Source: Ischnura elegans
Lineage: Eukaryota; Arthropoda; Insecta; Odonata; Coenagrionidae
Direction of reading: 5' to 3'
DNA: 64,000 bases
Assembly (NCBI RefSeq): GCF_921293095.1
Contig: NW_025791702.1
Span: 19,165-83,164, forward strand
Below the pieces are notes generated by a model. The model was not told where the DNA came from. It worked only from the letters and a program-made list of their open reading frames with translations, and did no database searches. The position numbers and the translations under genes are program-made. Shown here one piece after another: positions 10,480 to 54,480 of the stretch. Within the stretch, counting starts at the first letter, position 1. Each line of letters starts with the position of its first letter.

Positions 10480-11000
10480 ATGCGTGCCCAGAATATGCCG
10501 AGAAAAATTCTGTTCGGAAAGATGAACGTCACCCCGTCGAATGTTTCCCAAGAATTCGCGCATCCGCATTCGAGGGAAACGGAAATGAATTCACTGCGTG
10601 GTATTCGTCCCTTCGTCGACGACTTCGATACGAACGAAGTAATGTCAGCGGTCGCCGACGAACTCGCAGCAAAGTAATAATTAATCTCGACCTTCCCGGG
10701 ACGAGCATCGCATCGCGAGTGCTCGAGGAGTAACACGCGCTGCCGCCAGATGGTGCGGGGGGGCCTGCTCCGCTGTCCGGCGACTGCCTCGCCGGGCGCG
10801 TACTCGCTCAAAATTTGAAAGTTCCATTTCCCCGAGGGAGAGCGAATCGATCACGACCGAGATCAAAAATTCCAATCCACGCACTGTCGAGTCCTCGGAT
10901 CTCAATTGCCGTGAAAGATTACTACTAATGACGGCGATGGCACGAAGCCTTTCCTTCGAAGGACGCAAAGCCCGCGAAGGACGTGACAGATTTATTGGAA
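10480..11000. repeat. CpG-rich relative of the 7.7-kb unit's left edge
   Basis: Aligns with 18453-19050. Shared landmarks are CCAGAATATG, ATTCACTGCGT, GTAATGTCAGC, GCAAAGTAATAAT, the TAGATGG-type motif, GCCTCGCCGGGCGCGT, CCCGAGGGAGAGCG and GTCGAGTCCTCGGATCT. Many differences are CpG in this copy against TpG or CpA in the other. A 65-codon frame at 10480-10677 is not open in the relative, so I do not call a gene. Confidence 0.85.
10743..10757 (+). promoter_or_regulatory. CTCF-like motif CCGCCAGATGGTGCG
   Basis: Left-most full motif, in the CpG-rich relative of the unit edge; followed by a G run. C at position 5 replaces the usual T. Confidence 0.45.
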
Positions 11001-11134
11001 CGGTTTATCATCGAACGTCCTACGAAGCACACTGTCGGCGGGCTGTCGAAGACATTTAAACGCCCGGTTTACGGAATCGACGAGGCACGACTGAGATCCA
11101 TTCGAAGAGATGAATATTAACGAAAGCGTCACAA

Positions 11135-11390
11135 AGACCACGACAGAACCGGCGTCATTTCGGTAACCCGCTGATGAACGTGAATCATTCGCTTCGTCTT
11201 CTCACGGCGGCCACCGCACGAAGTAGTTACCCGCATTCCGCCGCTAGATGGTGTCCTCTCCGCAGTGCACTGCTCGTGCGACTCACGGTAGGAAACTTAT
11301 AATCGCCCGTGGGAGTGCACTGCGGAATAATTATTCGCCACGCAGCGGTAATCCTTGCCATAACGAACGAACCGTCGACTCATCAAATGT
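11135..11390. repeat. Relative of unit segment 21.14-21.43 kb
   Basis: ACAGAACCGGCGT, TCTTCTCACG, the TAGATGG motif, AATCGCCCGTGGGA, AATAATTATTCG and AATCCTTGCCATA occur in the same order as at 21139-21425. Divergence is high but collinear. Confidence 0.8.
11241..11255 (+). promoter_or_regulatory. CTCF-like motif CCGCTAGATGGTGTC
   Basis: Matches the consensus except at the last three bases; orthologous in position to the motif at 21278 in the repeat unit. Confidence 0.4.
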
Positions 11391-11399
11391 GAAGTATTG

Positions 11400-12190: not shown

Positions 12191-12229
12191 GCTTCCACAC
12201 TAACACTCGCATTTACAATGCACGCTTTC

Positions 12230-12430
12230 ACAAGGAACGAGGCGTTCTAACGGTGACACATAAAATGTTGCTACGGAGTAATAAACAATTACCCGCGTCT
12301 CGTCCTGCGACGCGAGCACTGCCGGAGTACAATCTGCCGCCGACAGATGGCGCGGGGGGGCTCTTCGCAGTCGCTCGCCGTGGACGCCCAGAGCGGAATT
12401 TAAAATGTCGTCTCTCGGTGGGAATTCTAT
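12230..12430. repeat. Relative of unit segment 22.06-22.20 kb
   Basis: The motif-bearing block ending in TCGCAGTCGCTCGCCGTGGA and AGCGGAATTT matches 22130-22195 closely. Frames of about 100 codons overlap here on both strands and are judged spurious. Confidence 0.8.
12340..12354 (+). promoter_or_regulatory. CTCF-like motif CCGACAGATGGCGCG
   Basis: Variant with GGCGC core; positional relative of the motif at 22133. Confidence 0.45.
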
Positions 12431-15225: not shown

Positions 15226-15614
15226 CTAAGCGCGCTCTCCGCGGATACGGCGTGCCAGCTGGATGTCCTTTGGTGCACGATGGTGACGCGCTCGGCGTGG
15301 ATGGCGCACAGGTTGGTGTCCTCGAAAAGACCCACGAGGTAGGCCTCGGACGCCTCCTGCAGAGCCATGACGGCGGAGCTCTGGAAGCGGAGGTCGGTCT
15401 TCAAGTCCTGGGCGATCTCACGGACCAATGGGCGCTGGAAGGGCAGCTTGCGGATCAGAGTGCTCTTCTGGTGTCATCTCTTTCTGATCTCTCGGAGGGC
15501 CACGGTACCTGTGGGGCTTCTTCACTCCACCGGTGGCCTCTTGCGAGCGGCCTCGGTGGCCAGCTGCTTCCTGGGGGCGGTCGACTTACGGGCTGTCTGC
15601 TTGGTACGTGCCAT
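15226..15614 (-). pseudogene. Histone H3 pseudogene
   Basis: Histone H3 forms the (H3-H4)2 tetramer core of the nucleosome. The minus strand starts with ATG at 15614 and reads [12 protein letters not shown], then lacks G12-G13-K14. It resumes APRKQLAT, has K23E, and loses frame after ARK through a ~7-base deletion. A second deletion of 11 bases lies between two GGTACC copies, and a TGA stop follows near the REIR region. A clean stretch [20 protein letters not shown] and onward through the alpha-2 helix follows, with F78L, K115E and M120V and an extra proline before LVRE. A 2-base insertion after VTIV shifts the last ~15 residues out of frame; the ancestral stop is TAG at 15228-15226. No intact H3 could be made. 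It diverges from an H4 pseudogene 180 bp away, the usual insect arrangement. Confidence 0.92.
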
Positions 15615-16106
<492 letters not shown>

Positions 16107-18452: not shown

Positions 18453-18866
18453 ATTGCCAGAATATGTCGAGAAAAATTCTTTTAATAAAGACGAAGGTCA
18501 ATTTGTGAAATGCTTTCAACGATTACTATTCTCCTGTTAGATTTCCTTGGAACGAAAATTAATTCACTGCGTAGTAATTAAAACCCTGCTACGTGCGATT
18601 CCCTTCATTAACGGGATCGGCTATTATTACTGCGGATCATTCATCATTCCTTTTCTTACACGTGTGTAGCGTCAAAAGATGGAAGATACAAACGACGTAA
18701 TGTCAGCTGTCACTGACAAACTTGCAACAAAGTAATAATATTATCTCGTCATCCGCCTCCCGGGACAAGTATTGCATCGTGAGTGCTCAAAAAGTAAGAC
18801 GCGCTGCCGCTAGATGGTGCGGGGGAGGCCACTCCGCAGTCCGGTGCCTGCCTCGCCGGGCGCGTG
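18453..18866. repeat. Left flank of the 7.7-kb array
   Basis: Present once here and again, diverged, at 10480-10810, but absent before units 2-4. It therefore preserves the ancestral left junction of the array. The array proper begins at CAAACACAAG (18867). Confidence 0.8.
18807..18821 (+). promoter_or_regulatory. CTCF-like motif CCGCTAGATGGTGCG
   Basis: Full consensus, 46 bases before the start of unit 1, followed by a G run; its relative is at 10743. Confidence 0.5.
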
Positions 18867-20169
18867 CAAACACAAGTTTGAAAGTTCGATTCCCCCGAGG
18901 GAGAGCGCACCCCGGCTATTGTTTACGACCGAGGTCAACAATGCCAATGCATCCGCTGTCGAGTCCTCGGATCTTGACTGTCTCGAACGATTACTATTAA
19001 TGACAGCAATGGCACATAGCCTTTTCGTCCGAAGACGCAAAGCTTGCGTCCGTTTCGCACGTAAAATCACTTATAAATTCAATCCATGAACACATCATTG
19101 TAAACCTGCACATTTCTCTCATTTCTCATCGTTGGTGAATGTTAATTTTGACTGAAGGAAAATAAATCCGGGCAATGCTATTAACTGCCGACCACCGAGC
19201 GTCGCTCGGCGTATTGCATTTCATTTTCGCGTTCATAACTAGCGGACCACTTCGACTCCCATACGAATTGAGTTCCTGCAAGTCTCGACACGCACACTGA
19301 CTAGGCAGCCGGTATCGGGGGTGTCGAGCCTGGAGAAAAGCAAAACAAAATGCTGTCGTCCGAACTTGCGTGTCATGCGATGGATAAAATTGTGCTCCCG
19401 GAACATGAAGGACGCAATTTCTTTCTTTCATTATGTCTCGTTTACGTTGTAATGGCACGCTTGCAATCGGTTAAACGGACAAAGCTTGCAGATGCATTCG
19501 AGAAATATATTAATCGCGGAGTTGTTTCGTGAACGATTCATTACATCAATTCAATTACAGATTTATTGTAACAGTTACTCATCAAACGCACGACGTCCTA
19601 TCAAAGACAATGAAACGCAAACGTACGATACTTACTATCGATACTAAATTCGCAACAATAAGAATTTTTCAATGCAAGCAATTAGTAGTGGAACACTTCC
19701 CACACGCAAATCGGTGCAACAACTTCAGCGTTCGTACTTGTCGAAACAATTGAAAACAACAGCAATGAAACCAGCAAACACCCGGTTGCTAAGGATAATT
19801 AGCACGTCAACAATCACATTTCTCATTCCCTTTCCCAGGAAAGACCAGCGATAAAAAAGTTTGATGTAATGAAATCGAGTAATTATCACCCATGGCGAAA
19901 GCTATTTCAGTTTCGAGCCCCTACGGTTACCTCGTAACAATCAGTAACGCATTGCAAGAGCACAGTTTACATTTTTTCCCGAAAATCATAACACATGCGG
20001 TGTGCGAAAATGTGTGTGGAGGACTTAAAATAGTCTTCGACGCTTTGCACAATGCGTTCACACATTTCCGATAACCAACGCTGGACATAATTTTGCAAAA
20101 TCACAAATAAACTTGCGTATGAGTGCCGCTACTTACAACATTTCACGGTTTCCATTCAATCATATGACA

Positions 20170-21430
20170 ATGGCGTTTTGCTGGTCTCCAATTTCACGAG
20201 TCTGAGGAAACGTTTGTGATTTTACGTTTTACAATTAATTCCTTTTCTATATCCGATAAAATTCTTTCGGCCTCCGTGATGCTAACACTACGCTTTTCAA
20301 GTCACATGTCAACTTAACACAGCATTACCATGGAATGTTATCGTTGCCCTAATTAATTATGAAGTTTCGCTGCCAAGAAGTTATGAAATATCACACAAGG
20401 AATTATATTCGGACGAAAGGAAATTTAACAATAATCAACGCCGTCTGACAGTGGAAATGCGATGTGCACTATTTAACATCGCTAACTGCTTTCACAACAG
20501 CGGTCCAAATACATAGCATTACACTTATTATTAATCCGGATCTGCCAATGTACATGACTTCACATATGCAGAGTAAACAACCACGATGTAACACCGTTAA
20601 CACTTCAATTAAACTTTACCGTAGTTAATTTTGTGACACCAAACAATCAGTTGCTAAGGGAAACATTCGCGAAAAATATTCTTCCTTCAACTCTTTCGTC
20701 AACATTTTTAACAACGCACTTTGCCTAAGATACATAGTGCAAGGGGAAACCATCAACGTCTTAGCACATTCAATGGCAAACACTTTTAAATTATGCCACG
20801 ATTCACTCAACTTGTTACAATTAAGGACGCCACGACTAATTTCTGTTTTCTTACGATGCACAATTACACCCTGGGATCAATCAACCGTCAAACAGTGTAT
20901 TAATCACATCACAGTTTACTTTTCTACGCAAAAGAGAAAGCCAAGGAATAACACAGACAACGAATATGAATGTGAAGAGTGTGAAAATAAGTAATAGCGT
21001 ACTTACTCGGCTCTTCGGCTGTGGATCACAATCGCCATCGCTGTTGTCAACACACTTATTGCCGTACATTTCAATAACTTTTCCTATGCATCCAGCGACA
21101 CAGACACTTTCACTCCTTTCCTCACGTTTGCTGATCGTCACGAAGAACACTACAGAACCGGCGTTATGTCAGTTACCGCTGTTAACATGCAACAATTATC
21201 ACTGACATTAATTACTCGCGACGTCTTCTCACGACAGCTGCCGCAGCAAGAGCGATCGAGGAGTAATACAGAATCCGCCGCTAGATGGTGCGGGGGGAAC
21301 CTCCAGCAGTCCACTAAGCGCATCTCAGTTGGGAATTTGGAATCGCCCGTGGGAAAGCAATTGGGATAATTATTCGCAACGCAGCGGCAATATGAGAATC
21401 CTTGCCATACCTAATGAACCATCGATTGTC
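20170..21430. repeat. Segment X1 within unit 1
   Basis: Diverged sister of X2 (21520-22200). The two share ATTCCTTTTCTATATCCGAT-like, TGCCCTAATTA, AAGGAATTA, ACAGAACCGGCGTTATGTCA and motif-bearing blocks. X1 has about 700 bases (20445-21135) that X2 lacks. A minus-strand frame at 20881-21150 encodes a hydrophobic stretch but starts at GTG and is broken in the 52-kb relative. Copies lie at 27.89-29.15, 35.61-36.87 and 43.32-44.58 kb. Confidence 0.8.
21278..21292 (+). promoter_or_regulatory. CTCF-like motif CCGCTAGATGGTGCG
   Basis: In segment X1 of unit 1, followed by GGGGGAACC. Confidence 0.5.
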
Positions 21431-21519
21431 AATTGTCGTGAACTATTAATGTTCTCGACAACAAAGGCAAACCGAACGACCAAATCCTCGCCTTAAATTC
21501 GCAAATAATATCGTTAATT

Positions 21520-22200
21520 AAGCCATGATTCAAGCACAATGTAGTGAACATTTGCATAATTGGAATATAGAGTACTCTTGTAGCTCAAAATATCAACCAA
21601 AACGTACCTCATTATGCAGTCTTACGTGGATTTCGACGATTTCCTAGGGATTTTAAACCAATATTTCAAGTACGGATGCCACTGATATTCGTTTGGCGAA
21701 GGAAATGTTGTAGCAAAGCAATTACTGAAAGGGGCAGTACAATCTGGGAAATGTTTGTGAGTTTGCCTTTGACGTTTCAAAATTAATTCCTCTTTTACGT
21801 CCGATAACATACCTTGGGCTTCGTTATGCTAACACTTCCCTTCTAAATTCACATGTTAAGTTATCACAGCTTACCATGAAACGTTGTCCCTGCCCTAATT
21901 ATTTCCGTTATTCCGCTGCCAACAAAAAATGAAATAGCACAAAAGGAATTACATTCCCACGAAAGGAACGTTAAGAATAACCAACGACGCCTGACGAAGA
22001 ACACTATAGAACCGGCGTTATGTCAGTAACCGCTGATAAACATGCAATAATTATAACTGATATTAATTATTCGCGTCGTCTTCTCACGACGGCTACCGCT
22101 GCAAGAGTGATCGAGTAGTTATTCGGATTCCGCCGATAGATGGCGCGGGGGAGCCTTTTCGCAGTCGCTCGCCGTGGACGTCCACAGCGGAATTTGAAAT
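21520..22200. repeat. Segment X2 within unit 1
   Basis: Second, deleted version of X1: CAACGACGCCTGAC joins directly to GAAGAACACTATAGAACC at about 21993. An undeleted relative of X2 exists at 51085-52450. Copies in units 2-4 lie about 7717 bases apart. Confidence 0.8.
22133..22147 (+). promoter_or_regulatory. CTCF-like motif CCGATAGATGGCGCG
   Basis: GGCGC-core variant in segment X2 of unit 1; followed by GGGGAGCC and the conserved TCGCAGTCGCTCGCCGTGGA. Confidence 0.5.
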
Positions 22201-22279
22201 ATCGAGCTAAGAGAAGATGGAATGATGCAAACAGTGCTTTAGATGGCAATATGTTACGAGGAGGTATGAAGTGCAGGAC

Positions 22280-22450
22280 ATGGTGGGTTACGAGTGGCAG
22301 CTTCTACATGAGATACAGAGGAGATTGAAGGTATTGATGGAACGAGCGATAAGAGAAGATAAGATGATGAAAACAGTGCCATTGATGGCAATATATTACG
22401 AGGAGATTCTATCGTTCTCACGTTACTTCACTTACTTAAACTCACGTTAA
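22280..22450 (+). CDS. Candidate 56-codon small ORF (uncertain)
   Basis: ATG at 22280 to TAA at 22448-22450 gives 56 residues: charged (Y-E-W-Q-L-L-H-E-I-Q-R-R-L-K), then I-R-E-D-K-M-M-K, then an aromatic tail. I do not recognise it. The same frame is intact in all five copies (22280, 29997, 37715, 45433, 52577). The second codon is GTG in unit 1 and ATG elsewhere, and one Ile is Leu in the most diverged copy. The stretch just upstream (22203-22265) is a direct repeat of the ORF's middle (22346-22405) in which the equivalent frame has stops. Copies are so similar that intactness is weak evidence. It may be a relic of a mobile-element protein or chance. Confidence 0.15.
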   Translation: MVGYEWQLLHEIQRRLKVLMERAIREDKMMKTVPLMAIYYEEILSFSRYFTYLNSR

Positions 22451-22625
22451 ACTTGTAATTTCATTATTTTCAAACAGAGCATCATTTTTCTGAGAGGATA
22501 ATCTTTAATATCAACACTGAAATGACGGTTTCATTATCCTTTCGATTTCAGTAGTTTTCATGGGGCTGCTGTGGCCTGTAAGTTGACAAATACCAATCAA
22601 ATATTATACACTTCATCCAAATAAC
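22441..22625. repeat. Block Z, copy a (body of tRNA-headed repeat)
   Basis: CTCACGTTAAACTTGTAATT through TGTGGCCTGTAAGTTGACAA recurs within the same unit at 26045-26225, where it is joined to a tRNA-like head. It also occurs at 52739-52920 and 54628-54810. Here the head is missing. Confidence 0.8.
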
Positions 22626-22679
22626 GCCTTCCCGCATTTAAGATAATCTACGCCAAACATAATTTTGCAAAATCACACA

Positions 22680-23380
22680 TGAATTGCGGCGGCAGAGGGG
22701 AAGAGAAAAATGCCTCCCAGGAATGTCACCTCACCTCCAGGCCTTCCGCCCCTCTTCCTCCCCCCCTCCGCCCTTCCCCGCCCGGCCGAGGACGACAGCA
22801 TCCCACGGTCCCAGGAGCCGGGAATTTCCAAAAATTCTGTAGCCATACCGGCAAAAAGTCGTCCCCCCCCCCATTCACTCTCACCGAGTGATGTCAGCCT
22901 CCAACCACATATCGTTTACAAAAAATTTCGACGACCTTAATCCAAACAACCGCTCCTCGCATACCGAATTCACATTTGAGGCATTACGGCCGGTATTCTC
23001 CTCTCCCAAAATCACTCGGACATGTATTTTTCACGCCAACCGCAACCCGCCGGAGGCGACTTTTACGTCTTCAGCGGTCACCTTATGAAGGTATTTATAT
23101 CTCCCCTTCTAAATCTCCTGAAATAATTTTTTTTCACACCATTTCCCGACGCAATTACCTTTCGAGCACCTTCCCCGAACGAACGACACCGGTTTCAGAT
23201 TTTTACCTGCTCGGGAAGTACCCCAAACGCAGTACTGTACTTCGAACATCGAGTCATCCAAAAAATCGAGTTAGTTCACAACAGCGGCGCACTCGGTTTT
23301 TTTACTCGACGGAAGACAAGTGCGCAAATTTTACTCCTTCCGAATTTCGACCCCATTTTCACAAAACCTTTAGTTAAATG
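22680..23380 (+). other. Polypyrimidine tract and 161-codon open frame
   Basis: A C/T-rich stretch (22740-22880, including variable C runs) ends in CTCTCACCGAG, which resembles a 3' splice acceptor. Immediately after it a plus-strand frame stays open from 22892 to the TAA ending at 23377. It contains no ATG, so it could only be an internal exon or chance. The frame is open in all six copies (ends 31094, 38812, 46530, 53718, 55628). The two outer copies read 21 codons further because TAA is TAC there. No domain is recognisable; the composition is R/S/T/P-rich. Confidence 0.25.
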
Positions 23381-24317
23381 CCTTAGGAACACGACCCCGT
23401 TGGTATTTTTCAAATATCTGCAAAACTCTGGCCACGGTGAATTTTTTAAACATTACCCCCCCCCACTTTTCTTTGGGACACTTGGAAACGTCACTTTCCA
23501 TTTTTTTTCCCTCCTACTAGGCCGATTTTCGTCCAGTATCTTTTAAATTCGCAATTTGCATTACTAAACGCTCATGTCCTATGAATTTCGACACCCCAGC
23601 ACGCATCCTTCCTATTTTTAAAAATTATTAAAAGGTCGTTGGAACCACCATTTCGCGTATATTCACGCGCCTTTCATTTATAAATCATTAAGTATGGCAA
23701 AAGTCTCCGTTTTTCTTTCGGATTCCGAAAGAGCACCACATAACACGTATTGAGGATGAATTTCAAGCATCCAGCACGTACTAAAGTGGTCGGAAAAATT
23801 TTTCAAATGTCACCGTTACAACTCTTTCACGTCCACGACTCAACTACAAAGTTTTACACGGATTTCCCGAATAACATGGTATTTAAAAATCCGAATTGCT
23901 GTGCATCTTGTTCAAGAATGTGTGTTGATGTGAAATAACACGTAAAACATTGCTTGGTGGCCACTTTGTGTTAAATAAACGGCTTTTTCCGTCATCTCGA
24001 CTGCTCGGCGTGGCATTTCGGAGTAAACTTAGGACAGGAATTTAGTGTACATTGTGGGATTAAAAATCTGAAACCAAGTGATTGTCGTACACACACGTTG
24101 TATGGTGTTGACAAAGATAAGAATTACATTTCTGTCTCGACGGTATAGCATATTATCGCCTTAGAGTTTGAAGTTAGGAGAAGGCAACCAGTACTGCATT
24201 ATAATTTTTTTTCCAAAATCGGTACGGTGCGGCGTGGGTTTCTGGACTACGAAATACGTTACATGCTGTAAGTTTTATGGTGAACATCAGAGATGAGAGA
24301 ATAGGAAAGAGAGCAAT

Positions 24318-24633
24318 CCGAAAACTTTGATAAATTTAGTCATAACTCCATAATTCTAACATAATTTGTTTTTCGTGCACTGCATCGGAAACCATTCTTG
24401 CTATTGTGTTACTTCAGCATGTTAATTAGGAATGGTCTGCAAGGGAGATGCAGAAAAAGCGAGAATGTTATTGATATTCTCCCCTTCTTCGGTTACTAGT
24501 GAATGACTGAGTCTCGTATTAATATACCATAAATCAACTAATAACTAGCTGGTCGCCTATTTCGCACTTGGCTGCGAACTGTCCGAGTATGGTTCCGCCG
24601 CCGCCGCCGCTAGATGGTGCGGCGTGCTTCTCC
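24318..24633. repeat. Block R, left copy in unit 1
   Basis: About 316 bases from CCGAAAACTTTG to GGCGTGCTTCTCC, repeated at the unit's right end (26265-26578). The left copy continues into CGGCGATTCACAGAC, the right copy into the next unit. Equivalent pairs occur in units 2-4. Confidence 0.9.
24607..24621 (+). promoter_or_regulatory. CTCF-like motif CCGCTAGATGGTGCG
   Basis: In left block R of unit 1, directly after a CCG run; followed by GCGTGCTTCTCCC. Confidence 0.5.
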
Positions 24634-25779: not shown

Positions 25780-25935
25780 TCTGCTTAATATAAATTGCCT
25801 CCCGAAGACATATAAGACACGGGAGAAAAAAATCGATGAAAGCCATCGAACACCGGATTCAGACTCCAGAATAAAGGTTGATTATTTGCAGTAATAAAAT
25901 ATTACGGCGTTGGTGCTACCCACATCTTTATCATC
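25780..25935 (+). mobile_element. Possible LTR relic
   Basis: TATA-like words (AATATAAAT near 25787, CATATAAGAC near 25807) are followed by a polyadenylation signal AATAAA (25870-25875). A TTGGTGCTACCCACATC stretch (25910-25926) then resembles the start of an arthropod Gypsy-type leader, where a tRNA primer site would follow. No gag or pol sequence is present. Copies recur in units 2-4 near 33.5, 41.2 and 48.95 kb. The boundaries and the call are tentative. Confidence 0.25.
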
Positions 25936-25940
25936 CGATT

Positions 25941-26225: not shown

Positions 26226-26264
26226 TTGCTGATTTCTACCGAATATTTTGATGTCCCTCGTGAA

Positions 26265-40039: not shown

Positions 40040-40054
40040 CCGCTAGATGGTGCG
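40040..40054 (+). promoter_or_regulatory. CTCF-like motif, unit 3 left R
   Basis: CCGCTAGATGGTGCG. Confidence 0.5.
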
Positions 40055-41373: not shown

Positions 41374-41658
41374 TGGACTAGTTGTTAGAGTACGTTGCTA
41401 CCACGCGCGCGGGGCCCACGTTCGATGCTTCAGGCACGCAATTTTTTTCACAATATTTTGTATTTCTTTCGCTGCGGCTCACGTTAAACTTTTAATTTCA
41501 TTATTTCCAAACAGAACATAATTTTTTACGAGAGCAAAATCTTTAATATCAACAAATGTAGTTTCATCATCCTTTCGATTTTATTAGTTTTCATGGGGCT
41601 GCTGTGGCCTGTAAGTTGACAAATAGCAATCCAATTTCATACGCTTTATCCAAATCGT
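41374..41658 (+). mobile_element. tRNA-headed SINE-like element, unit 3
   Basis: Head and body as in unit 1; A-box-like and B-box-like words unchanged. Confidence 0.5.
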
Positions 41659-41986
41659 TTGCTGATTTCTACCGAATATTTTGATGTCCCTCGTGAACCG
41701 AAAACTTTGATAAATTTAGTCATAACTCCATAATTCTAACATAATTTTTTTTTCGTGCACTGCATCGGAAACCATTCTTGCTATTGTGTTACTTCAGCAT
41801 GTTAATTAGGAAAGGTCTGCAAGGGAGATGCAGAAAAAGAAGGATTGTTATTGATATTCTCCCCTTCTTCGGTTACTAGTGAATGACTAAGTCTCGTATT
41901 AATATACCATAAATTAACTAATAACTAGCTGGTCGCCTATTTCGCACTTGGCTGCGAACTGTCCGAGTATGGTTCCGCCGCCGCCG

Positions 41987-42001
41987 CCGCTAGATGGTGC
42001 G
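41987..42001 (+). promoter_or_regulatory. CTCF-like motif at unit 3/4 junction
   Basis: CCGCTAGATGGTGCG, 18 bases before unit 4. Confidence 0.5.
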
Positions 42002-44430
42002 GCGTGCTTCTCCGCTTCTCAAACACAAGTTTGAAAGTTCGATTCCCCCGAGGGAGAGCGCACCCCGGCTATTGTTTACGACCGAGGTCAACAATGCCAA
42101 TGCATCCGCTGTCGAGTCCTCGGATCTTGACTGTCTCGAACGATTACTATTAATGACAGCAATGGCACATAGCCTTTTCGTCCGAAGACGCAAAGCTTGC
42201 GTCCGTTTCGCACGTAAAATCACTTATAAATTCAATCCATGAACACATCATTGTAAACCTGCACATTTCTCTCATTTCTCATCGTTGGTGAATGTTAATT
42301 TTGACTGAAGGAAATTAAATCCGGGCAATGCTATTAACTGCCGACCACCGAGCGTCGCTCGGCGTATTGCATTTCATTTTCGCGTTCATAACTAGCGGAC
42401 CACTTCGACTCCCATACGAATTGAGTTCCTGCAAGTCTCGACACGCACACTGACTAGGCAGCCGGTATCGGGGGTGTCGAGCCTGGAGAAAAGCAAAACA
42501 AAATGCTGTCGTCCGAACTTGCGTGTCATGCGATGGATAAAATTGTGCTCCCGGAACATGAAGGACGCAATTTCTTTCTTTCATTATGTCTCGTTTACGT
42601 TGTAATGGCACGCTTGCAATCGGTTAAACGGACAAAGCTTGCAGATGCATTCGAGAAATATATTAATCGCGGAGTTGTTTCGTGAACGATTCATTACATC
42701 AATTCAATTACAGATTTATTGTAACAGTTACTCATCAAACGCACGACGTCCTATCAAAGACAATGAAACGCAAACGTACGATACTTACTATCGATACTAA
42801 ATTCGCAACAATAAGAATTTTTCAATGCAAGCAATTAGTAGTGGAACACTTCCCACACGCAAATCGGTGCAACAACTTCAGCGTTCGTACTTGTCGAAAC
42901 AATTGAAAACAACAGCAATGAAACCAGCAAACACCCGGTTGCTAAGGATAATTAGCACGTCAACAATCACATTTCTCATTCCCTTTCCCAGGAAAGACCA
43001 GCGATAAAAAAGTTTGATGTAATGAAATCGAGTAATTATCACCCATGGCGAAAGCTATTTCAGTTTCGAGCCCCTACGGTTACCTCGTAACAATCAGTAA
43101 CGCATTGCAAGAGCACAGTTTACATTTTTTCCCGAAAATCATAACACATGCGGTGTGCGAAAATGTGTGTGGAGGACTTAAAATAGTCTTCGACGCTTTG
43201 CATAATGCGTTCACACATTTCCGATAACCAACGCTGGACATAATTTTGCAAAATCACAAATAAACTTGCGTATGAGTGCCGCTACTTACAACATTTCACG
43301 GTTTCCATTCAATCATATGACAATGGCGTTTTGCTGGTCTCCAATTTCACGAGTCTGAGGAAACGTTTGTGATTTTACGTTTTACAATTAATTCCTTTTC
43401 TATATCCGATAAAATTCTTTCGGCCTCCGTGATGCTAACACTACGCTTTTCAAGTCACAAGTCAACTTAACACAGCATTACCATGGAATGTTATCGTTGC
43501 CCTAATTAATTATGAAGTTTCGCTGCCAAGAAGTTATGAAATATCACACAAGGAATTATATTCGGACGAAAGGAAATTTAACAATAATCAACGCCGTCTG
43601 ACAGTGGAAATGCGATGTGCACTTTTTAACATCGCTAACTGCTTTCACAACAGCGGTCCAAATACATAGCATTACACTTATTATTAATCCGGATCTGCCA
43701 ATGTACATGACTTCACATATGCAGAGTAAACAACCACGATGTAACACCGTTAACACTTCAATTAAACTTTACCGTAGTTAATTTTGTGACACCAAACAAT
43801 CAGTTGCTAAGGGAAACATTCGCGAAAAATATTCTTCCTTCAACTCTTTCGTCAACATTTTTAACAACGCACTTTGCCTAAGATACATAGTGCAAGGGGA
43901 AACCATCAACGTCTTAGCACATTCAATGGCAAACACTTTTAAATTATGCCACGATTCACTCAACTTGTTACAATTAAGGACGCCACGACTAATTTCTGTT
44001 TTCTTACGATGCACAATTACACCCTGGGATCAATCAACCGTCAAACAGTGTATTAATCACATCACAGTTTACTTTTCTACGCAAAAGAGAAAGCCAAGGA
44101 ATAACACAGACAACGAATATGAATGTGAAGAGTGTGAAAATAAGTAATAGCGTACTTACTCGGCTCTTCGGCTGTGGATCACAATCGCCATCGCTGTTGT
44201 CAACACACTTATTGCCGTACATTTCAATAACTTTTCCTATGCATCCAGCGACACAGACACTTTCACTCCTTTCCTCACGTTTGCTGATCGTCACGAAGAA
44301 CACTACAGAACCGGCGTTATGTCAGTTACCGCTGTTAACATGCAACAATTATCACTGACATTAATTACTCGCGACGTCTTCTCACGACAGCTGCCGCAGC
44401 AAGAGCGATCGAGGAGTAATACAGAATCCG

Positions 44431-44445
44431 CCGCTAGATGGTGCG
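44431..44445 (+). promoter_or_regulatory. CTCF-like motif, unit 4 X1
   Basis: CCGCTAGATGGTGCG. Confidence 0.5.
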
Positions 44446-45285
44446 GGGGGAACCTCCAGCAGTCCACTAAGCGCATCTCAGTTGGGAATTTGGAATCGCC
44501 CGTGGGAAAGCAATTGGGATAATTATTCGCAACGCAGCGGCAATATGAGAATCCTTGCCATACCTAATGAACCATCGATTGTCAATTGTCGTGAACTATT
44601 AATGTTCTCGACAACAAAGGCAAACCGAACGACCAAATCCTCGCCTTAAATTCGCAAATAATATCGTTAATTAAGCCATGATTCAAGCACAATGTAGTGA
44701 ACATTTGCATAATTGGAATATAGAGTACTCTTGTAGCTCAAAATATCAACCAAAACGTACCTCATTATGCAGTCTTACGTGGATTTCGACGATTTCCTAG
44801 GGATTTTAAACCAATATTTCAAGTACGGATGCCACTGATATTCGTTTGGCGAAGGAAATGTTGTAGCAAAGCAATTACTGAAAGGGGCAGTACAATCTGG
44901 GAAATGTTTGTGAGTTTGCCTTTGACGTTTCAAAATTAATTCCTCTTTTACGTCCGATAACATACCTTGGGCTTCGTTATGCTAACACTTCCCTTCTAAA
45001 TTCACATGTTAAGTTATCACAGCTTACCATGAAACGTTGTCCCTGCCCTAATTATTTACGTTATTCCGCTGCCAACAAAAAATGAAATAGCACAAAAGGA
45101 ATTACATTCCCACGAAAGGAACGTTAAGAATAACCAACGACGCCTGACGAAGAACACTATAGAACCGGCGTTATGTCAGTAACCGCTGATAAACATGCAA
45201 TAATTATAACTGATATTAATTATTCGCGTCGTCTTCTCACGACGGCTACCGCTGCAAGAGTGATCGAGTAGTTATTCGGATTCCG

Positions 45286-45300
45286 CCGATAGATGGCGCG
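45286..45300 (+). promoter_or_regulatory. CTCF-like motif, unit 4 X2
   Basis: CCGATAGATGGCGCG. Confidence 0.5.
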
Positions 45301-47757
45301 GGGGAGCCTTTTCGCAGTCGCTCGCCGTGGACGTCCACAGCGGAATTTGAAATATCGAGCTAAGAGAAGATGGAATGATGCAAACAGTGCTTTAGATGGC
45401 AATATGTTACGAGGAGGTATGAAGTGCAGGACATGATGGGTTACGAGTGGCAGCTTCTACATGAGATACAGAGGAGATTGAAGGTATTGATGGAACGAGC
45501 GATAAGAGAAGATAAGATGATGAAAACAGTGCCATTGATGGCAATATATTACGAGGAGATTCTATCGTTCTCACGTTACTTCACTTACTTAAACTCACGT
45601 TAAACTTGTAATTTCATTATTTTCAAACAGAGCATCATTTTTCTGAGAGGATAATCTTTAATATCAACACTGAAATGACGGTTTCATTATCCTTTCGATT
45701 TCAGTAGTTTTCATGGGGCTGCTGTGGCCTGTAAGTTGACAAATACCAATCAAATATTATACACTTCATCCAAATAACGCCTTCCCGCATTTAAGATAAT
45801 CTACGCCAAACATAATTTTGCAAAATCACACATGAATTGCGGCGGCAGAGGGGAAGAGAAAAATGCCTCCCAGGAATGTCACCTCACCTCCAGGCCTTCC
45901 GCCCCTCTTCCTCCCCCCCTCCGCCCTTCCCCGCCCGGCCGAGGACGACAGCATCCCACGGTCCCAGGAGCCTGGAATTTCCAAAAATTCTGTAGCCATA
46001 CCGGCAAAAAGTCGTCCCCTCCCCCATTCACTCTCACCGAGTGATGTCAGCCTCCAACCACATATCGTTTACAAAAAATTTCGACGACCTTAATCCAAAC
46101 AACCGCTCCTCGCATACCGAATTCACATTTGAGGCATTACGGCCGGTATTCTCCTCTCCCAAAATCACTCGGACATGTATTTTTCACGCCAACCGCAACC
46201 CGCCGGAGGCGACTTTTACGTCTTCAGCGGTCACCTTATGAAGGTATTTATATCTCCCCTTCTAAATCTCCTGAAATAATTTTTTTTCACACCATTTCCC
46301 GACGCAATTACCTTTCGAGCACCTTCCCCGAACGAACGACACCGGTTTCAGATTTTTACCTGCTCGGGAAGTACCCCAAACGCAGTACTGTACTTCGAAC
46401 ATCGAGTCATCCAAAAAATCGAGTTAGTTCACAACAGCGGCGCACTCGGTTTTTTTACTCGACGGAAGACAAGTGCGCAAATTTTACTCCTTCCGAATTT
46501 CGACCCCATTTTCACAAAACCTTTAGTTAAATGCCTTAGGAACACGACCCCGTTGGTATTTTTCAAATATCTGCAAAACTCTGGCCACGGTGAATTTTTT
46601 AAACATTACCCACCCCACTTTTCTTTGGGACACTTGGAAACGTCACTTTCCATTTTTTTTCCCTCCTACTAGGCCGATTTTCGTCCAGTATCTTTTAAAT
46701 TCGCAATTTGCATTACTAAACGCTCATGTCCTATGAATTTCGACACCCCAGCACGCATCCTTCCTATTTTTAAAAATTATTAAAAGGTCGTTGGAACCAC
46801 CATTTCGCGTATATTCACGCGCCTTTCATTTATAAATCATTAAGTATGGCAAAAGTCTCCGTTTTTCTTTCGGATTCCGAAAGAGCACCACATAACACGT
46901 ATTGAGGATGAATTTCAAGCATCCAGCACGTACTAAAGTGGTCGGAAAAATTTTTCAAATGTCACCGTTACAACTCTTTCACGTCCACGACTCAACTACA
47001 AAGTTTTACACGGATTTCCCGAATAACATGGTATTTAAAAATCCGAATTGCTGTGCATCTTGTTCAAGAATGTGTGTTGATGTGAAATAACACGTAAAAC
47101 ATTGCTTGGTGGCCACTTTGTGTTAAATAAACGGCTTTTTCCGTCATCTCGACTGCTCGGCGTGGCATTTCGGAGTAAACTTAGGACAGGAATTTAGTGT
47201 ACATTGTGGGATTAAAAATCTGAAACCAAGTGATTGTCGTACACACACGTTGTATGGTGTTGACAAAGATAAGAATTACATTTCTGTCTCGACGGTATAG
47301 CATATTATCGCCTTAGAGTTTGAAGTTAGGAGAAGGCAACCAGTACTGCATTATAATTTTTTTTCCAAAATCGGTACGGTGCGGCGTGGGTTTCTGGACT
47401 ACGAAATACGTTACATGCTGTAAGTTTTATGGTGAACATCAGAGATGAGAGAATAGGAAAGAGAGCAATCCGAAAACTTTGATAAATTTAGTCATAACTC
47501 CATAATTCTAACATAATTTTTTTTCGTGCACTGCATCGGAAACCATTCTTGCTATTGTGTTACTTCAGCATGTTAATTAGGAATGGTCTGCAAGGGAGAT
47601 GCAGAAAAAGCGAGAATGTTATTGATATTCTCCCCTTCTTCGGTTACTAGTGAATGACTGAGTCTCGTATTAATATACCATAAATTAACTAATAACTAGC
47701 TGGTCGCCTATTTCGCACTTGGCTGCGAACTGTCCGAGTATGGTTCCGCCGCCGCCG

Positions 47758-47772
47758 CCGCTAGATGGTGCG
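47758..47772 (+). promoter_or_regulatory. CTCF-like motif, unit 4 left R
   Basis: CCGCTAGATGGTGCG. Confidence 0.5.
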
Positions 47773-49091
47773 GCGTGCTTCTCCCGGCGATTCACAGACT
47801 CTTTCTCTGCGCACATCGGCCGACGGAAAGGCGGCTACTGAAATAAGAAACATTCCTTCGGGTAACCGCGCGGGTGAGAAAATCACAGAGCGCCTATTTT
47901 CCCCTTCATTAAATCACGGGAATGAAAGAAAATTCTAAAATGTGATGCATCATTCCCAATGCAGTCCCCCGTGACTTCGAAATAAATTTTTAGCCGTGGT
48001 GGACACGGATTATCGTAAACACCTTTAACTGTTTGTCACCGTTCCTTCCCACTCTGAAAATGTTTCGTGCCCGAGTTGCTGCCCGCAGTTGTCCACGATT
48101 CAATTTTACATTTTCCCTAACGGTACCGTAAGTTCTTACTACATTTTTGCATGCCACGGCGAATGACAATCGTTCTCCAGTCTCTTTGCCATCGGAGTGA
48201 AGCGGAAATTACATCCTTTCGCGAGCGATCGAAGAATTTCCTTATCCGAATTAATTATTCCTCGTGAGTAGTCAGGTCTACCTTCCTTCCTCGATTGCAC
48301 CCTACATACGTCAAATATCCTTCCTCTTCTCAATGAGTAATATCGTCACTGTCTGCCAGTGTCAACGACTTATCCTTAAACCGAACTCCCATAGTTGTAC
48401 ATATTCGCAGTACACGAGAAAAGTTCGCAGAGTTTCGGAGTATAGCCGTACATTTAGTCAGTAAAGGGAGAGAACCGATTAATTAATATCTTACGAATAG
48501 GCAATCCACATTTCTCTACATTCTATTAAAACGCACGGAACGACTTAATCCGTAGCAATAAATTTCCGTGCCTTCTGCCTTGAGTATATGTTAATGAACA
48601 CACTCGTCTCTTCCACAATGATTTTCAAAGCATAACTCAATTATTTGGTAAGCTTTTCGTGACATTTAACTGTTTCGCTTGAGCGCTGAACAATATAGTT
48701 ACCCTTAGTAACGAAGTTATTTGGTTTCCTGTTGGCTGTTTGCTACACCTAAACATTTCGATGCAAGACGTAACGCGAGTACAGCAAATAATGGAAACTT
48801 TGCATCGCTAATTCTTTCAACGTTACGTGCGACGTAACATAGCAACCGACGGTGGAAAATCATGGAATTCGCTTATCTAAAATGCCACTTCTTGCACCTC
48901 CTGCTAATTTTTATTAATAGGGAAATGCTGTCTGCTTAATATAAATTGCCTCCCGAAGACATATAAGACACGGGAGAAAAAAATCGATGAAAGCCATCGA
49001 ACACCGGATTCGCACTCCAGAATAAAGGTTGATTATTTGCAGTAATAAAATATTACGGCGTTGGTGCTACCAACATCTTTATCATCCGATT

Positions 49092-49376
49092 TGGACTAGT
49101 TGTTAGAGTACGTTGCTACCACGCGCGCGGGGCCCACGTTCGATGCTTCAGGCACGCAATTTTTTTCACAATATTTTGTATTTCTTTCGCTGCGGCTCAC
49201 GTTAAACTTTTAATTTCATTATTTCCAAACAGAACATAATTTTTTCTGAGAGCAAAATCTTTAATATCAACAAATGTAGTTTCATCATCCTTTCGATTTT
49301 ATTAGTTTTCATGGGGCTGCTGTGGCCTGTAAGTTGACAAATAGCAATCCAATTTCATACACTTTATACAAATCGT
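49092..49376 (+). mobile_element. tRNA-headed SINE-like element, unit 4
   Basis: Head unchanged; body matches unit 1 more than units 2-3 at CTGAGAGC. Confidence 0.5.
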
Positions 49377-49701
49377 TTGCTGATTTCTACCGAATATTTT
49401 GATGTCCCTCGTGAACCGAAAACTTTGATAAATTTAGTCATAACTCCATAATTCTAACATAATTTTTTTTTCGTGCACTGCATCGGAAACCATTCCTGCT
49501 ATTGTGTTACTTCAGCATGTTAATTAGGAATGGTCTGCAAGGGAAATGCAGAAAAAGCGAGAATGTTATTGATATTCTCCCCTTCTTCGGTTACTAGTGA
49601 ATGACTCCGTCTCGTAATAATATGCCATACAATAACTAATAACTAGCTGGTCGCCTATTTCGCACTTGGCTGCGAACTGTCCGAGTGTGGTTCCGCCGCC
49701 G

Positions 49702-49716
49702 CCGCTAGATGGTGTG
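49702..49716 (+). promoter_or_regulatory. CTCF-like motif at right edge of array (variant)
   Basis: CCGCTAGATGGTGTG: one change (C to T) in the core compared with all internal copies. Confidence 0.4.
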
Positions 49717-49727
49717 GCGTGCTTCTC

Positions 49728-49967
49728 TCGGCGATTCACAGACTTTCTCTGCGCACATCGGCCGACGGAAAGGCGGCTACTGAAATAAGAAACATTCCTT
49801 CGGGTAACCGCGCGGGTGAGAAAATCCCAGAGCGCCTATTTTCCCCTTCATTAAATCACGGGAATGAAAGAAAATTCTAAAATGTGATGCATCATTCCCA
49901 ATGCAGTCCCCCGTGACTTCGAAATAAATTTTTAGCCGTGGTGGACACGGATTATCGTAAACACCTT
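49728..49967. repeat. Right flank of array, copy of 24.63-24.87 kb
   Basis: TCGGCGATTCACAGAC through GATTATCGTAAACACCTTT follows 24634-24870 closely, then stops matching. It shows that block R plus this sequence was contiguous at the original right boundary. Confidence 0.85.
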
Positions 49968-51080: not shown

Positions 51081-51084
51081 CACT

Positions 51085-52290
51085 ATCGTTCGTCAAGCCG
51101 AGATTCAAGAACAATGTAGTGAACATTTGCATAATTGGAATAGAGAGAATTCTTGCTGCTCAAAATATCAACCAAAACGTACCTCATAATGCAGAGTCTT
51201 ACGTGGTTTTCGAAGATTTCCAAGCGATTTTAAACCAATATTTCAAGTACGGATGTCACTGTTAAAATTTGTATGGCGAAGGAAATGATGTAGCAATCCG
51301 GAATTACTGAAAGAGGCAGTACAATCTGGGAAATGTTTGTGAGTCTGCCTTTGACTTTTGAAAAGTATTTCCTCTACTACGTCCGATAACATTCCTTGGG
51401 CTTCGTTATGCTAACAGTTCGCTTTTAAAATCACACGTTAAGTTATCACAGCTTGCCATAAAACGTTGTCCCTGCCCTAATTATTTACGTTATTCCGCTG
51501 CCAAGAAAAAATGAAATGGTACAAAAGGAATTACATTCCCACGAAAGGAACGTTAAAAATAACCAACGACGCCTGACAGTAGGAATGGGATGTGTAATCG
51601 TCAACATCGTTTATTGTTCTTTCATTGCACTTATTAGACTTAGCATTGACACGTATTATTAATCAAGATCTGCCAATTGGCATCACTTCACACATGCAGA
51701 GTAAAGAACGACGATATAACACGCTAAACAATACAATTTAATTATTCCGTATTCACTAATGTGAAACCAGCAATCCGTTGCTAAGGAAAACATTAGCGAA
51801 AAATATTCTTCCTTCAACTCTTTCGTCAACATTTTAAACAGCGCACAGTGTCTAAGATACAAAGTGCAAGGGAAAACCATCAACTTCTTGGCACAGAGAA
51901 AGGCAAACAATTTTAAATTAAGCCACGATTCACTCAACTTGTAACAATTAAGGATGCCGCGAATAATTTCGGTTTTCTTAGGATACACAATAACACGTTG
52001 GGATCAATCAACCGTCATCATCGTCAAAAAGTGAATTAATCACTACAGAGTTTACTTTTCCACGCAAAAGAGAAACGCAAGGAACAACACAGTCGACGAA
52101 TACGAGCGTGAAAAGTGTTTAAATAAGTAATACTTACTCGGCTCGCTGGTTGTGGATCACAAGTATTCACCTGCACGGCTATCAGCATCGCTTTTGTCAA
52201 CACTATTGATTCTCCTGCATTTCACTCACTTTTCCAATACATCCATCGACACAGACACTTTCACTCTTTTCCTCACGTTTGCTGAGCGTC
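51085..52290. repeat. Undeleted relative of segment X2 (X3)
   Basis: 51085-51560 follows unit positions 21515-21990, 51560-52285 follows 20436-21140, and the sequence then returns to the 21993 register. It therefore contains the ~700 bases missing from X2 in the units. Divergence is roughly 10-15 percent by eye. Confidence 0.8.
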
Positions 52291-54480
52291 ACAAAGAACA
52301 CTACAGAACCGGCGTTATGCCAGTAACCGCTGATAAACATGCAATAATTATAACTGATAATAATTATTCGCGTCGTCTTCTCACGACAGCTACCGCTGCA
52401 AGAGTGATCGAGTAGTAATTCAGATTCCACCGATAGATGGCGCGGGGGGGCCTTTTCGCAGTCGCTCGCCGTGGACGTCCACAGCGGAATTTGAAATATC
52501 GAGCTAAGAGAAGATGGAATGATGCAAACAGTGCTTTAGATGGCAATATGTTACGAGGAGGTATGAAGTGCAGGACATGATGGGTTACGAGTGGCAGCTT
52601 CTACATGAGATACAGAGGAGATTGAAGGTATTGATGGAACGAGCGCTAAGAGAAGATAAGATGATGAAAACAGTGCCATTGATGGCAATATATTACGAGG
52701 AGATTCTATCGTTCTCACGTTACTTCACTTACTTAAACTCACGTTAAACTTCTAGTTTCATTATTTTCAAACAGAACATCATTTTTCTGAGAGGATAATC
52801 TTTAATATCAACACTGAAATGACGGTTTCATTATCCTTTCGATTTCAGTAGTTTTCATGGGGCTGCTGTGGCCTGTAAGTTGACAAATACCAATCAAATA
52901 TTATACACTTCATCCAAATAACGCCTTCCCACATATAAGATAATCTACGCCAAACATAATTTTGCAAAATCACACATGAATTGCGGCGGCAGAGGGGAAG
53001 AGAAAAATGCCTCCCAGGCCTTCCGCCCCTCTTCCCCCCCCCCCTCCGCCCTTCCCCGCCCGGCCGAGGACGACAGCATGCCACGGTCCCAGGAGCCGGG
53101 AATTTCCAAAAATTCTGTAGCCATACCGGCAAAAAGTCGTGCCCCCCCCCATTCACTCTCACCGAGTGATGTCAGCCTCCAACCACATATCGTTTGCAAA
53201 AAATTTCGACGACCTTAATCCAAACAACCGCTCCTCGCATACCGAATTCACATTTGAGGCATTACGGCCGGTATTCTCCTCTCCCAAAATCACTCGGACA
53301 TGTATTTTTCACGCCAACCGCAACCCGCCGGAGGCGACTTTTGCGACTTCAGCGGTCACCTTATGAAGGTTTTTATATCTCCCCTTCTAAATCTCCTGAA
53401 ATAATTTTTTTTCACACCATTTCTCGACGCAATTCCCTTTCCAGCACCTTCCCCGAACGAACGACACCGGTTTCAGATTTTTACCTGCTCGGGAAGTACC
53501 CCAAACGCAGTACTGTACTTCGAACATCGAGTCATCCAAAAAATCGAGTAAGTTCACAACAGCGGCGCACTCGGTTTTTTTACTCGACGGAAGACAAGTG
53601 CGCAAATTTTACTCCTTCCGAATTTCGACCCCGTTTTCACAAAAGCTTTAGTTACATGCCTGCGGAACACGACCCCGTTGGTATTTTTCAAATATCTGCA
53701 AAACTCTGGCCACGGTGAATTTTTTAAACATTACCCCCCCCCACTTTTCTTTGGGACACTTGGAAACGTCACTTTCCATTTTTTTCCCCTCCCACTAGGC
53801 CGATTTTCGTTCAGTTTCTTTTAAATTCGCAATTATCATTACTATACGCTCATGTCCTATGAATATTGACTCTCCAGCACGCATCCTTCCTATTTTTAAA
53901 AATTATTCAATGGTCGTCGGAACCACTATTTTGGGCATTTCAACGCGTCTTTCATTTATAATTCAAGAAGTAAGGCGAAAGTCTCCAATTTTCTTTCGGA
54001 TTCCGAAAGAGCACCACATTACACGTATTCGGAATGAATTTCATGCATCCAGCACGTACTTTTAAGGTCGGAAAAAATTTTCAAATGTCACCGTTAACAC
54101 TCTTTCACGTCCACGACTCAACTACAAAGTTTTACACGGATTTCCCGAATAACATGGTATTTAAAAATCCGAATTGCTGAGTATCTTGTTCTGGAATGTG
54201 TGTTGATGTGAAATAACACGTAAAACATTGCTTGGTGGCCACTTTGTGTTAAATAAACGGCTTTTTCCGTCATCTCGACTGCTCGGCGTGGCATTTCGGA
54301 GTTAAACTCAGGGCAGGAATTTAGTGTACATTTGTAATATTAAAAATCTGAAACCAAGTGATTGTCGTACACACACGTTGTATGGTGTTGACAAAGATAA
54401 GAATTACATTTCTGTCTCGATGTTATAGCTTATGAACGCCTTAGAGTTTGGAGTTACGAGAAGGGAACCAGTACTGCATT
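52291..54480. repeat. Partial unit copy 5 (matches 21.99-24.2 kb)
   Basis: Collinear with the right half of segment X2 through the family-B-like region. 52291-53640 is only a few percent diverged; from 53820 on divergence rises sharply. It contains the small ORF at 52577-52747 and the open frame 53170-53718. Confidence 0.9.
52430..52444 (+). promoter_or_regulatory. CTCF-like motif, partial copy 5
   Basis: CCGATAGATGGCGCG; the preceding bases are CCAC where the units have CCGC, and the G run after it is longer. Confidence 0.5.

Follow-up and report, generated by a model that had tools for sequence, protein, structure and literature searches.

The long intergenic spacer of the histone/5S repeat of Ischnura elegans carries four CTCF-like sites, A, B, C and D, all in one direction, and we regard it as somewhat better than an even call, judging from matrix fit and conservation, that they are candidate CTCF boundary elements built into the repeat. 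The stretch of DNA analysed as a whole (the window, 64 kb) is a decayed variant of this histone array in which the spacer has been copied in tandem. The earlier note, which had reported twenty-one CTCF-like motifs of the same orientation in the window, missed that they belong to an array of histone and 5S genes with four such sites in its spacer. The motif scan found all twenty-one as described, on the plus strand (Table 1). With up to three mismatches allowed there are 22 matches in the window, the 22nd being a three-mismatch one on the minus strand at 56847, while dinucleotide shuffles searched on both strands gave a mean of 2.38 (sd 1.61, maximum 7) and 0 of 100 reached 22.

The histone/5S repeat and its decayed variant

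On contig C34 the tandem histone unit is 43.3 kb long and runs H1, H3, H4, H2A, H2B, the four plus-strand sites A-D and 5S, with the whole gene order taken from one unit and the site set from two. The first 16.7 kb of C34 are repeated at +43262 with 99.86% identity. In the unit whose full order is known, the candidate sites follow the core histone genes and precede the H1 of the next unit. Among the small contigs C28-C73, H4 was matched on 14, and in 14 of 14 the motif lies on the same strand as H4.

Table 1. Positions of sites, spacer units and genes (window coordinates, except where C34 is given)
Feature	Position	Strand	Remarks
Extra CTCF-like site CCGCCAGATGGCTTC	10011..10025	+	fly matrix 16.1 bits; absent from the list of the earlier note
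Decayed 5S rRNA gene	10343..10447	+	sub-threshold, 30.2 bits vs gathering 38
CTCF-like site A' CCGCCAGATGGTGCG	10743..10757	+	diverged unit; fly matrix 17.3 bits, p 7.5e-7
CTCF-like site B' CCGCTAGATGGTGTC	11241..11255	+	diverged unit; fly matrix 16.3 bits
CTCF-like site C' CCGACAGATGGCGCG	12340..12354	+	diverged unit; fly matrix 20.8 bits
Decayed histone H3 gene	15229..15614	-	frameshifts and in-frame stops
Histone H4 coding stretch, residues 2-103	15798..16103	+	100/102 identical to H4 query
Histone 3' stem-loop	16161..16205	+	sub-threshold, 25.6 bits vs gathering 34
Site A CCGCTAGATGGTGCG	18807..18821	+	start of tandem block; motif scan and matrix
Tandem spacer unit 1	18867..26583	+	7717 bp
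Site B, unit 1	21278..21292	+	copies at 28995, 36713, 44431; motif scan and matrix
Site C, unit 1 CCGATAGATGGCGCG	22133..22147	+	20.3 bits; copies at 29850, 37568, 45286
Site D, unit 1	24607..24621	+	copies at 32322, 40040, 47758; motif scan and matrix
Site D' with A-type right flank	26551..26565	+	tandem-unit junction; copies at 34269, 41987
Tandem spacer unit 2	26584..34301	+	7718 bp
Tandem spacer unit 3	34302..42019	+	7718 bp
Tandem spacer unit 4	42020..49736	+	7717 bp
Site D', last copy CCGCTAGATGGTGTG	49702..49716	+	weakest; fly matrix 13.9 bits, p 8.8e-6
C-type site 3' of tandem block	52430..52444	+	fly matrix 20.3 bits
H1	C34 18837	+	histone unit
H3	C34 20746-20339	-	histone unit
H4	C34 36981	+	histone unit
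H2A	C34 38685-38314	-	histone unit
H2B	C34 38904-39272	+	histone unit
CTCF-like sites A, B, C, D	C34 43959, 46446, 48041, 50043	+	spacer after H2B
5S gene	C34 52175		after A-D sites

In the window the 5S remnant lies directly upstream of A', an arrangement that matches the C34 unit, and the multiplied spacer block is located on this decayed variant contig, outside the C34-type repeat. The four tandem units differ pairwise by 9-42 substitutions per 7.7 kb. Because they are near-identical copies, the 21 sites are not independent and go back to about four ancestral ones (A-D). Probably a D site was joined to an A-type flank by recombination at a point 12-27 bp beyond its downstream end, and this junction was then amplified into the four 7.7-kb copies; the window sites would have been carried along with the copying, and their number would need no added function. 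The additional site at 10011 is present in six of six old-type copies examined, the window itself being one of the six. On inspection by eye, a B-box-like stretch was noticed only next to A-type right flanks. A coding role was rejected, as none of 6 long reading frames has a Pfam match at E<=0.001, and so was a tRNA or tRNA-derived element, with 0 genes found in the window by ARAGORN.

Conservation, descent and genomic distribution of the sites

According to the earlier note the motif is kept in relatives whose surroundings have diverged, which holds when all seven modules are aligned and weakens when they are taken pair by pair. In the seven-way alignment the motif block scores 96/105 and the next-best block 79, and 10 of the 34 invariant columns (of 434) fall within the 15 motif columns. 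The sites at 10-12 kb retain 14-15 of 15 bases, with flanks 60-75% identical to their C34 and window counterparts. Pair by pair, in six comparisons of old with new modules, 18-36 of 272 flanking 15-bp windows equal the motif's conservation; 12 of 15 bases are kept both between A and C, a level reached by 25 of the 272 windows in the flanks, and between B and C, where 106 of 272 reach it. The substitutions among site alleles preserve the matrix score to a degree that random ones equal in 0.15% of 100,000 trials (P=0.0015).

A, B and C have related flanks, with the similarities of B-C, A-C and A-B equalled by 0, 1 and 7 of 1000 random spacer pairs, respectively. With the masked flanks of D compared to A, B and C of C34, 787, 885 and 701 of 1000 random pairs are as good, so that D has no detectable flank relation to the other three and a reading of all four sites as mutual duplicates is not supported. 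A, B and C would therefore have descended from one another through duplication, while D, which shares an exact 15-mer with A and B of C34, may either have diverged past recognition or have had a separate origin. This older duplication accounts for A, B and C pointing the same way, as tandem copying does for the number of sites, and neither feature lends independent support to a directional boundary.

These data bear on a passive-remnant reading, in which the motif would be ordinary spacer sequence, spread by unequal exchange and homogenisation, with a chance match to CTCF. The reduction of 21 sites to about four, the few substitutions between units, the duplication that explains why A, B and C share one direction, and spacer flanks that are ~97% kept between C34 and C13 are in accordance with it. 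It is nevertheless unlikely, as the motif is the best-kept block of seven diverged modules, its substitutions are confined to the consensus, and D has the exact A/B 15-mer without detectable flank homology.

Equal frequency in dispersed repeats, which the earlier note had set against its own reading, was not found. The exact 15-mer has 206 matches genome-wide, and among 100 matches listed in contig order 9 are on C1-C12 and 88 on small contigs; eight of those nine loci were compared, and their flanks have no detectable similarity to each other, the window or C34. All 40 scored matches of the A' module (of 68 candidates) fall either in the motif cluster of C13 or on small contigs where H4 or the motif is present, so its copies are not scattered at unrelated places as those of a dispersed transposable element would be; an H4 match is absent from C13, C27 and C57. 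The fly-consensus CTCF pattern occurs 118 times in the genome and the reversed pattern 15 times, while a scrambled control occurs 38 times and its reverse 214 times, which indicates that controls vary. A pattern with the T core has 167 matches genome-wide (reversed control 17), and 65 of the 100 listed are a related 15-mer, CCGATAGATGGTGCT, which is part of a repeat that is young, as 5 of 5 copies examined are 97.5-99.8% identical over ~470 bp. Origin from a dispersed repeat is unsupported for the motif of the array but holds for the related 15-mer.

Fit to CTCF and to other factors

The Drosophila CTCF boundary core, for example in Fab-8 of the bithorax complex, is CC-R-M-Y-AG-R-TGGCGC. We scanned at p<1e-5 with approximate forms of a fly and a vertebrate CTCF matrix, JASPAR MA0531.1 and MA0139.1. 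In the window the fly matrix has 22 plus-strand and 0 minus-strand matches, the 21 sites and 10011, and the vertebrate matrix also 22 and 0, namely 20 of the 21 together with 10011 and 1505; the site at 49702 fails p 1e-5 on the latter. In 60 kb of C34 the fly matrix matches only the A-D sites and their copies (8 plus, 0 minus), and the vertebrate matrix gives 10 plus and 4 minus, with extra plus matches at 38430 and 42140. Column-permuted fly matrices have a mean of 3.7 window matches (maximum 23) and vertebrate ones 4.5 (maximum 32), the high maxima arising because a match to a repeated stretch is counted again in every copy. Six of seven site alleles score 16.3-20.8 bits on the fly matrix and one 13.9. 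In the GGC position of the core, C-type sites have C (ATGGCG), while A, B and D have T (ATGGTG) where CTCF matrices favour C. The CTCF identification made in the earlier note is strengthened by the matrix scores, the seven-way conservation, the consensus-bound substitutions and the CTCF gene in the genome, and weakened by this T. The CTCF consensus string AGATGGCGC, sought in the literature, was found in print, and the string AGGTGGCGC had no match in the literature text searched.

Exons for fingers 1-5 of the CTCF gene are located on C5 and are 58% (fingers 1-2), 73% (2-4) and 69% (4-5) identical to human; for the joined fingers 3-5 the best solved structure is CTCF (E 3.7e-64). A likely finger 6 and the start of 7 match weakly on C5 (21/62), and fingers 8-11 were not located with human finger queries against the genome. 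The first human finger queries gave ~35-51% matches to other zinc-finger genes, or none, and missed the gene because its exons are short; it was located with 26 residues of finger 3 as query. CTCF transcripts are reported from almost all arthropod assemblies surveyed (PMC5094011).

Promoters in rDNA spacers drive non-coding spacer transcription, and the arthropod initiator is KCAGTY. Less likely still than a passive remnant is that the module is such a repeated spacer promoter, in which the motif would act in non-coding transcription of the spacer as an activator or core-promoter site. The end of the motif lies 13-15 bp upstream of the A in an initiator-like GCAGTC, which follows it after 12-14 bp at the C34 sites A, B and C and, in the window, at 12340, 18807, 21278, 22133 and 52430, and the histone spacer is CpG-rich (observed/expected 1.24-1.66). 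However, D sites have GCGATTC, 10743 has GCTGTC, 11241 has GCAGTG just 6 bp off, 26551 lacks GCAGTC, and inspection by eye showed no downstream promoter element. Rfam at gathering threshold has zero RNA family matches across the window, and at E<=1, over 9500-27500, only the 5S remnant, the histone stem-loop and a chance-level match (22044-22258, E 0.34) that covers site C at 22133. An identity as rRNA spacer was rejected, with Rfam at gathering threshold empty in the window and limited to three 5S genes in L009-L017. Downstream GCAGTC is retained in several modules of types A, B and C, so the conserved element may extend beyond the CTCF site. Binding of the core by another zinc-finger protein, of YY1/Pho type or from another C2H2 gene, is the least probable: all 14 aligned modules have AGATGG unchanged and C2H2 genes are many (at least 81 matches to CTCF fingers at E<=1e-20), but the six alleles scoring well fit the CTCF matrix over 15 bp, and the YY1/Pho core, GCCAT, is missing from T-type sites.

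A putative boundary and known systems

If the sites are CTCF boundary elements, A-B-C-D would form a one-direction module of CTCF-type sites within the spacer of each histone/5S unit. Binding of CTCF to A-D would turn each spacer into a chromatin boundary, with the core histone genes of a unit on one side and, on the other, the 5S gene that comes next, the satellite and the H1 of the next unit.

Drosophila CTCF boundaries such as Fab-8 are developmental and single-copy; the I. elegans sites differ from them in being repeated with a gene array and in having mostly GGT instead of GGC. The specificity of Drosophila CTCF is described as similar to that of vertebrate CTCF (PMC2749850). The CTCF site ATGCAGCTAGATGGCGCTC, printed in a legend on mammals (PMC5739101), has TAGATGGCGC in common with the C-type site. 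A nearer parallel in location is sea-urchin sns5, an insulator within the tandem early histone repeat that shields the H1 promoter from the core-histone enhancer (PMC3784565), as the I. elegans sites also lie between core histone genes and the next H1. According to the same source the sns5 boxes are unlike the CTCF consensus, and a homeodomain protein, CMPl, binds boxB (PMC3784565), whereas the I. elegans sites are CTCF-type, four per unit, and adjoin a 5S gene, and their blocking is putative. Insect histone and 5S clusters are often co-localised on chromosomes (PMC11354594); in I. elegans the 5S genes are inside the histone repeat unit, with the CTCF-like sites between.

A bolder proposal, which we hold as tentative and doubtful, is that every histone repeat has its own four-fold one-way CTCF boundary, the locus being a chain of ~40 small insulated domains, in each of which the histone genes, read by Pol II, are kept apart from a 5S gene read by Pol III. 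This would be an insect, CTCF-based answer to the problem of sea-urchin sns5, with no counterpart in Drosophila. If CTCF binds, the histone array would hold probably well over a hundred CTCF sites of fixed direction and would offer a natural setting in which to ask if CTCF sites that all point one way make boundaries in insects. It would also show how Pol II histone and Pol III 5S genes stay apart within one repeat, and would bear on a separate origin of histone-repeat insulators, with different proteins, in echinoderms and insects. Drosophila cannot settle these questions because CTCF and CP190 ChIP-seq have no meaningful signal in its histone array (PMC10515271). A limited literature search had no link of CTCF to a histone repeat among the matches listed; the I. 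elegans histone repeat itself has already been published as the source of an H3-H4 marker (PMC12568778).

CTCF-like sites in the histone/5S repeat unit

In a repeated unit, a CTCF-like module of four sites in one direction follows the core histone genes and precedes the 5S gene. On contig C34, which carries an intact-looking copy, the order is H1, H3, H4, H2A, H2B, a weaker 5S match (67 bits), the 15-bp sites A to D and a strong 5S match (101 bits), and the first 16.7 kb of the contig recurs at +43,262 with 99.86% identity. Identity to fly-like queries is 100% for H3 and H4, 98% for H2A, 96% for H2B and, over the matched part, 75% for H1. Over 60 kb of C34 a fly CTCF matrix (p<1e-5) gave no sites beyond the A-D set, while a vertebrate matrix gave two further places on the plus and four on the minus strand.

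In one histone unit of C34 a gap of 16.2 kb (20747-36980) lies between H3 and H4, and a solitary 134-bp piece at 31767-31900 matches the window's H3-H4 intergenic stretch; the divergent promoter looks as if it had been split by two insertions. At eight other H4 loci, H3 lies 180-181 bp off in five and was not found within the 1.5 kb fetched in three. A 345-bp satellite occupies 2302-3565 and 5465-7175 of the window and is also present in the C34 unit, between the 5S gene and H1.

Features of the window, of the C34 unit and of a young dispersed repeat
Feature	Location	Strand	Remark
Decayed H3 gene	window 15229-15614	minus	
H4 reading stretch	window 15798-16103	plus	100/102 residues identical to query; ~180 bp from H3
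Histone 3' stem-loop	window 16161-16205		sub-threshold match
5S remnant	window 10343-10447		sub-threshold match
3-mismatch match to CCGMTAGATGGYGCG	window 56847	minus	pattern search of window
Sites A, B, C, D	C34 43959, 46446, 48041, 50043	plus	between core histone genes and 5S
Young dispersed repeat, copies L048-L052	C1:452878, C1:2388791, C2:2004394, C3:5225437, C7:112832766		

Number, direction and origin of the sites

The window covers bases 19165-83164 of contig C60, which is 83,164 bp in length. The pattern CCGMTAGATGGYGCG at up to three mismatches matches the window 22 times, once on the minus strand and otherwise at each of the 21 plus-strand sites (10743-52444) listed in the earlier note; shuffled windows gave a mean of 2.38 matches, and 0 of 100 reached 22. 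The fly matrix (p<1e-5) returned the 21 sites and an extra one at 10011, and the vertebrate matrix 20 of the 21 (49702 was missed) together with 10011 and 1505, with no minus-strand hit from either. Column-permuted matrices averaged 3.7 window hits for fly (maximum 23) and 4.5 for vertebrate (maximum 32), which indicates that repeats inflate the raw count, and the number of site types is a fairer measure. The earlier observation of twenty-one same-direction sites was right; duplication produced the count and, for the most part, the shared direction.

The four tandem units of the window are 7717-7718 bp each, and any two are set apart by 9-42 substitutions and by 2-11 gap columns. The site at 26551 and its copies combine a D-type left flank with an A-type right flank, with the switch 12-27 bp past the motif, so that a single recombination of a D neighbourhood with an A neighbourhood, followed by amplification, would account for the block. 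Within the C34 unit, masked flanks are related in the pairs B-C, A-C and A-B, whose local scores were equalled by 0, 1 and 7 of 1000 pairs of random spacer, whereas flanks of D against A, B and C were at random level (787, 885 and 701 of 1000 as good). Duplication thus explains why A, B and C face one way, but not why D does.

The decayed old-type unit of the window holds the diverged sites A', B' and C' (10743, 11241 and 12340), and these and 10011 have identical letters in 6/6 fetched old-type copies, one being the window itself. The A' module was found in nine copies at 99-100% identity on C97, C74, C57 and the window's own contig C60. It is to be noted that H3 of this unit is broken in the window, yet the A' module persists in at least nine near-identical copies. 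The unit (window 8000-16300) is GC-rich, at 0.49-0.53, and has a CpG observed/expected ratio of 1.52-1.66, above the 1.24-1.36 of the other spacer stretches measured.

Conservation of the motif

The earlier note had claimed that the motif is kept in diverged surroundings. Taken alone, the pairwise retention between old and new sites suggests this weakly: in six comparisons 14-15 of 15 bases are kept in flanks 60-75% identical, and the motif is equalled by 18-36 of 272 flanking windows. The comparison of seven modules (A-D of C34 and A'-C') clearly supports the claim, the motif block scoring 96/105 and the best other block 79. The pairs A-B and B-D retain 15/15 bases with 0/272 flanking windows as good, while B-C retains 12/15 (106/272) and A-C 12/15 (25/272); by this method the pairs A-D and C-D gave no alignment at the motif. 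The exact 15-mer is common to D, A and B, although the flanks of D have no detectable relation to those of A and B, and no other result speaks as strongly for a role of the word itself. Site C differs between C34 and C13 at 2/15 bases in flanks 97% identical.

Motif alleles vary at positions 3, 4, 5, 12, 14 and 15. On an allele tree drawn by hand, the six derived alleles lose a summed 0.8 bits in the fly matrix, where 35 would be expected; among 100,000 random trials, 0.15% perform equally well and 0.53% keep the minimum as high.

CTCF reading and genomic distribution

The CTCF reading of the sites is plausible, and most of the available tests left it standing. In the most likely mechanism, CTCF would bind the module sites and create one boundary per unit. 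The chief functional alternative is a promoter in the spacer that uses GCAGTC downstream of the motif. The nearest precedent is sns5 of sea urchin, likewise within a histone unit, the early one, where it is described as an insulator shielding H1 from the H2A enhancer; its sites are, however, not CTCF-type (PMC3784565), while those of the damselfly are CTCF-like. For the Drosophila histone array, CTCF and CP190 ChIP-seq are described as giving no meaningful signal (PMC10515271), which counts against a general insect rule for CTCF at histone arrays. The histone repeat of I. elegans has been published before (PMC12568778); what is new is the context, with CTCF-like sites built into the histone/5S repeat.

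A CTCF exon was located on C5 by a 26-residue finger-3 query. Exons around it match fingers 1-2 (25/43), 2-4 (38/52) and 4-5 (34/49), with a weak match (21/62) to a likely finger 6 and the start of 7; fingers 8-11 were not located. For joined fingers 3-5 the best solved structure is human CTCF (7w1m_H, E 3.7e-64; best non-CTCF chain 2.2e-55).

In the genome of 1,722,721,009 bases and 110 contigs the motif has 206 exact matches. Among the first 100 listed in contig order, small contigs hold 88, C1-C12 hold 9 and a cluster on C13 has 3. H4 has 46 matches, 43 of them on small contigs (C28 or later) and the rest on C10, C19 (partial) and C2 (a fragment). Compared by eye, motif and H4 have the same strand in 14/14 small contigs from C28 to C73 with an H4 match, and C27 and C57 have the motif without one. 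Chromosome 13 (C13, 21 Mb), also without an H4 match, carries an A-D spacer at 7175601-7183000 (locus L037), which perhaps marks the home of the unplaced histone array.

The C-core form of the fly consensus, ending in C or T, occurs 118 times genome-wide against 15 for the reversed pattern; the controls are uneven, a scrambled pattern giving 38 matches and its own reverse 214, and array alleles do not have the last base that this consensus demands. The T-core form has 167 matches against 17 reversed, and a single 15-mer makes up 65 of the 100 listed. This 15-mer belongs to a young dispersed repeat, of which 5/5 fetched copies are 97.5-99.8% identical over ~470 bp. The repeat carries CCGATAGATGGTGCT with CCGCTAGGTGGCCC ~24 bp upstream, and as a mobile element it may distribute CTCF-like sites. 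CTCF fingers also match other C2H2 zinc-finger genes with long open frames, and nearly all of the matches listed are on C13, C14, C16 and C17.
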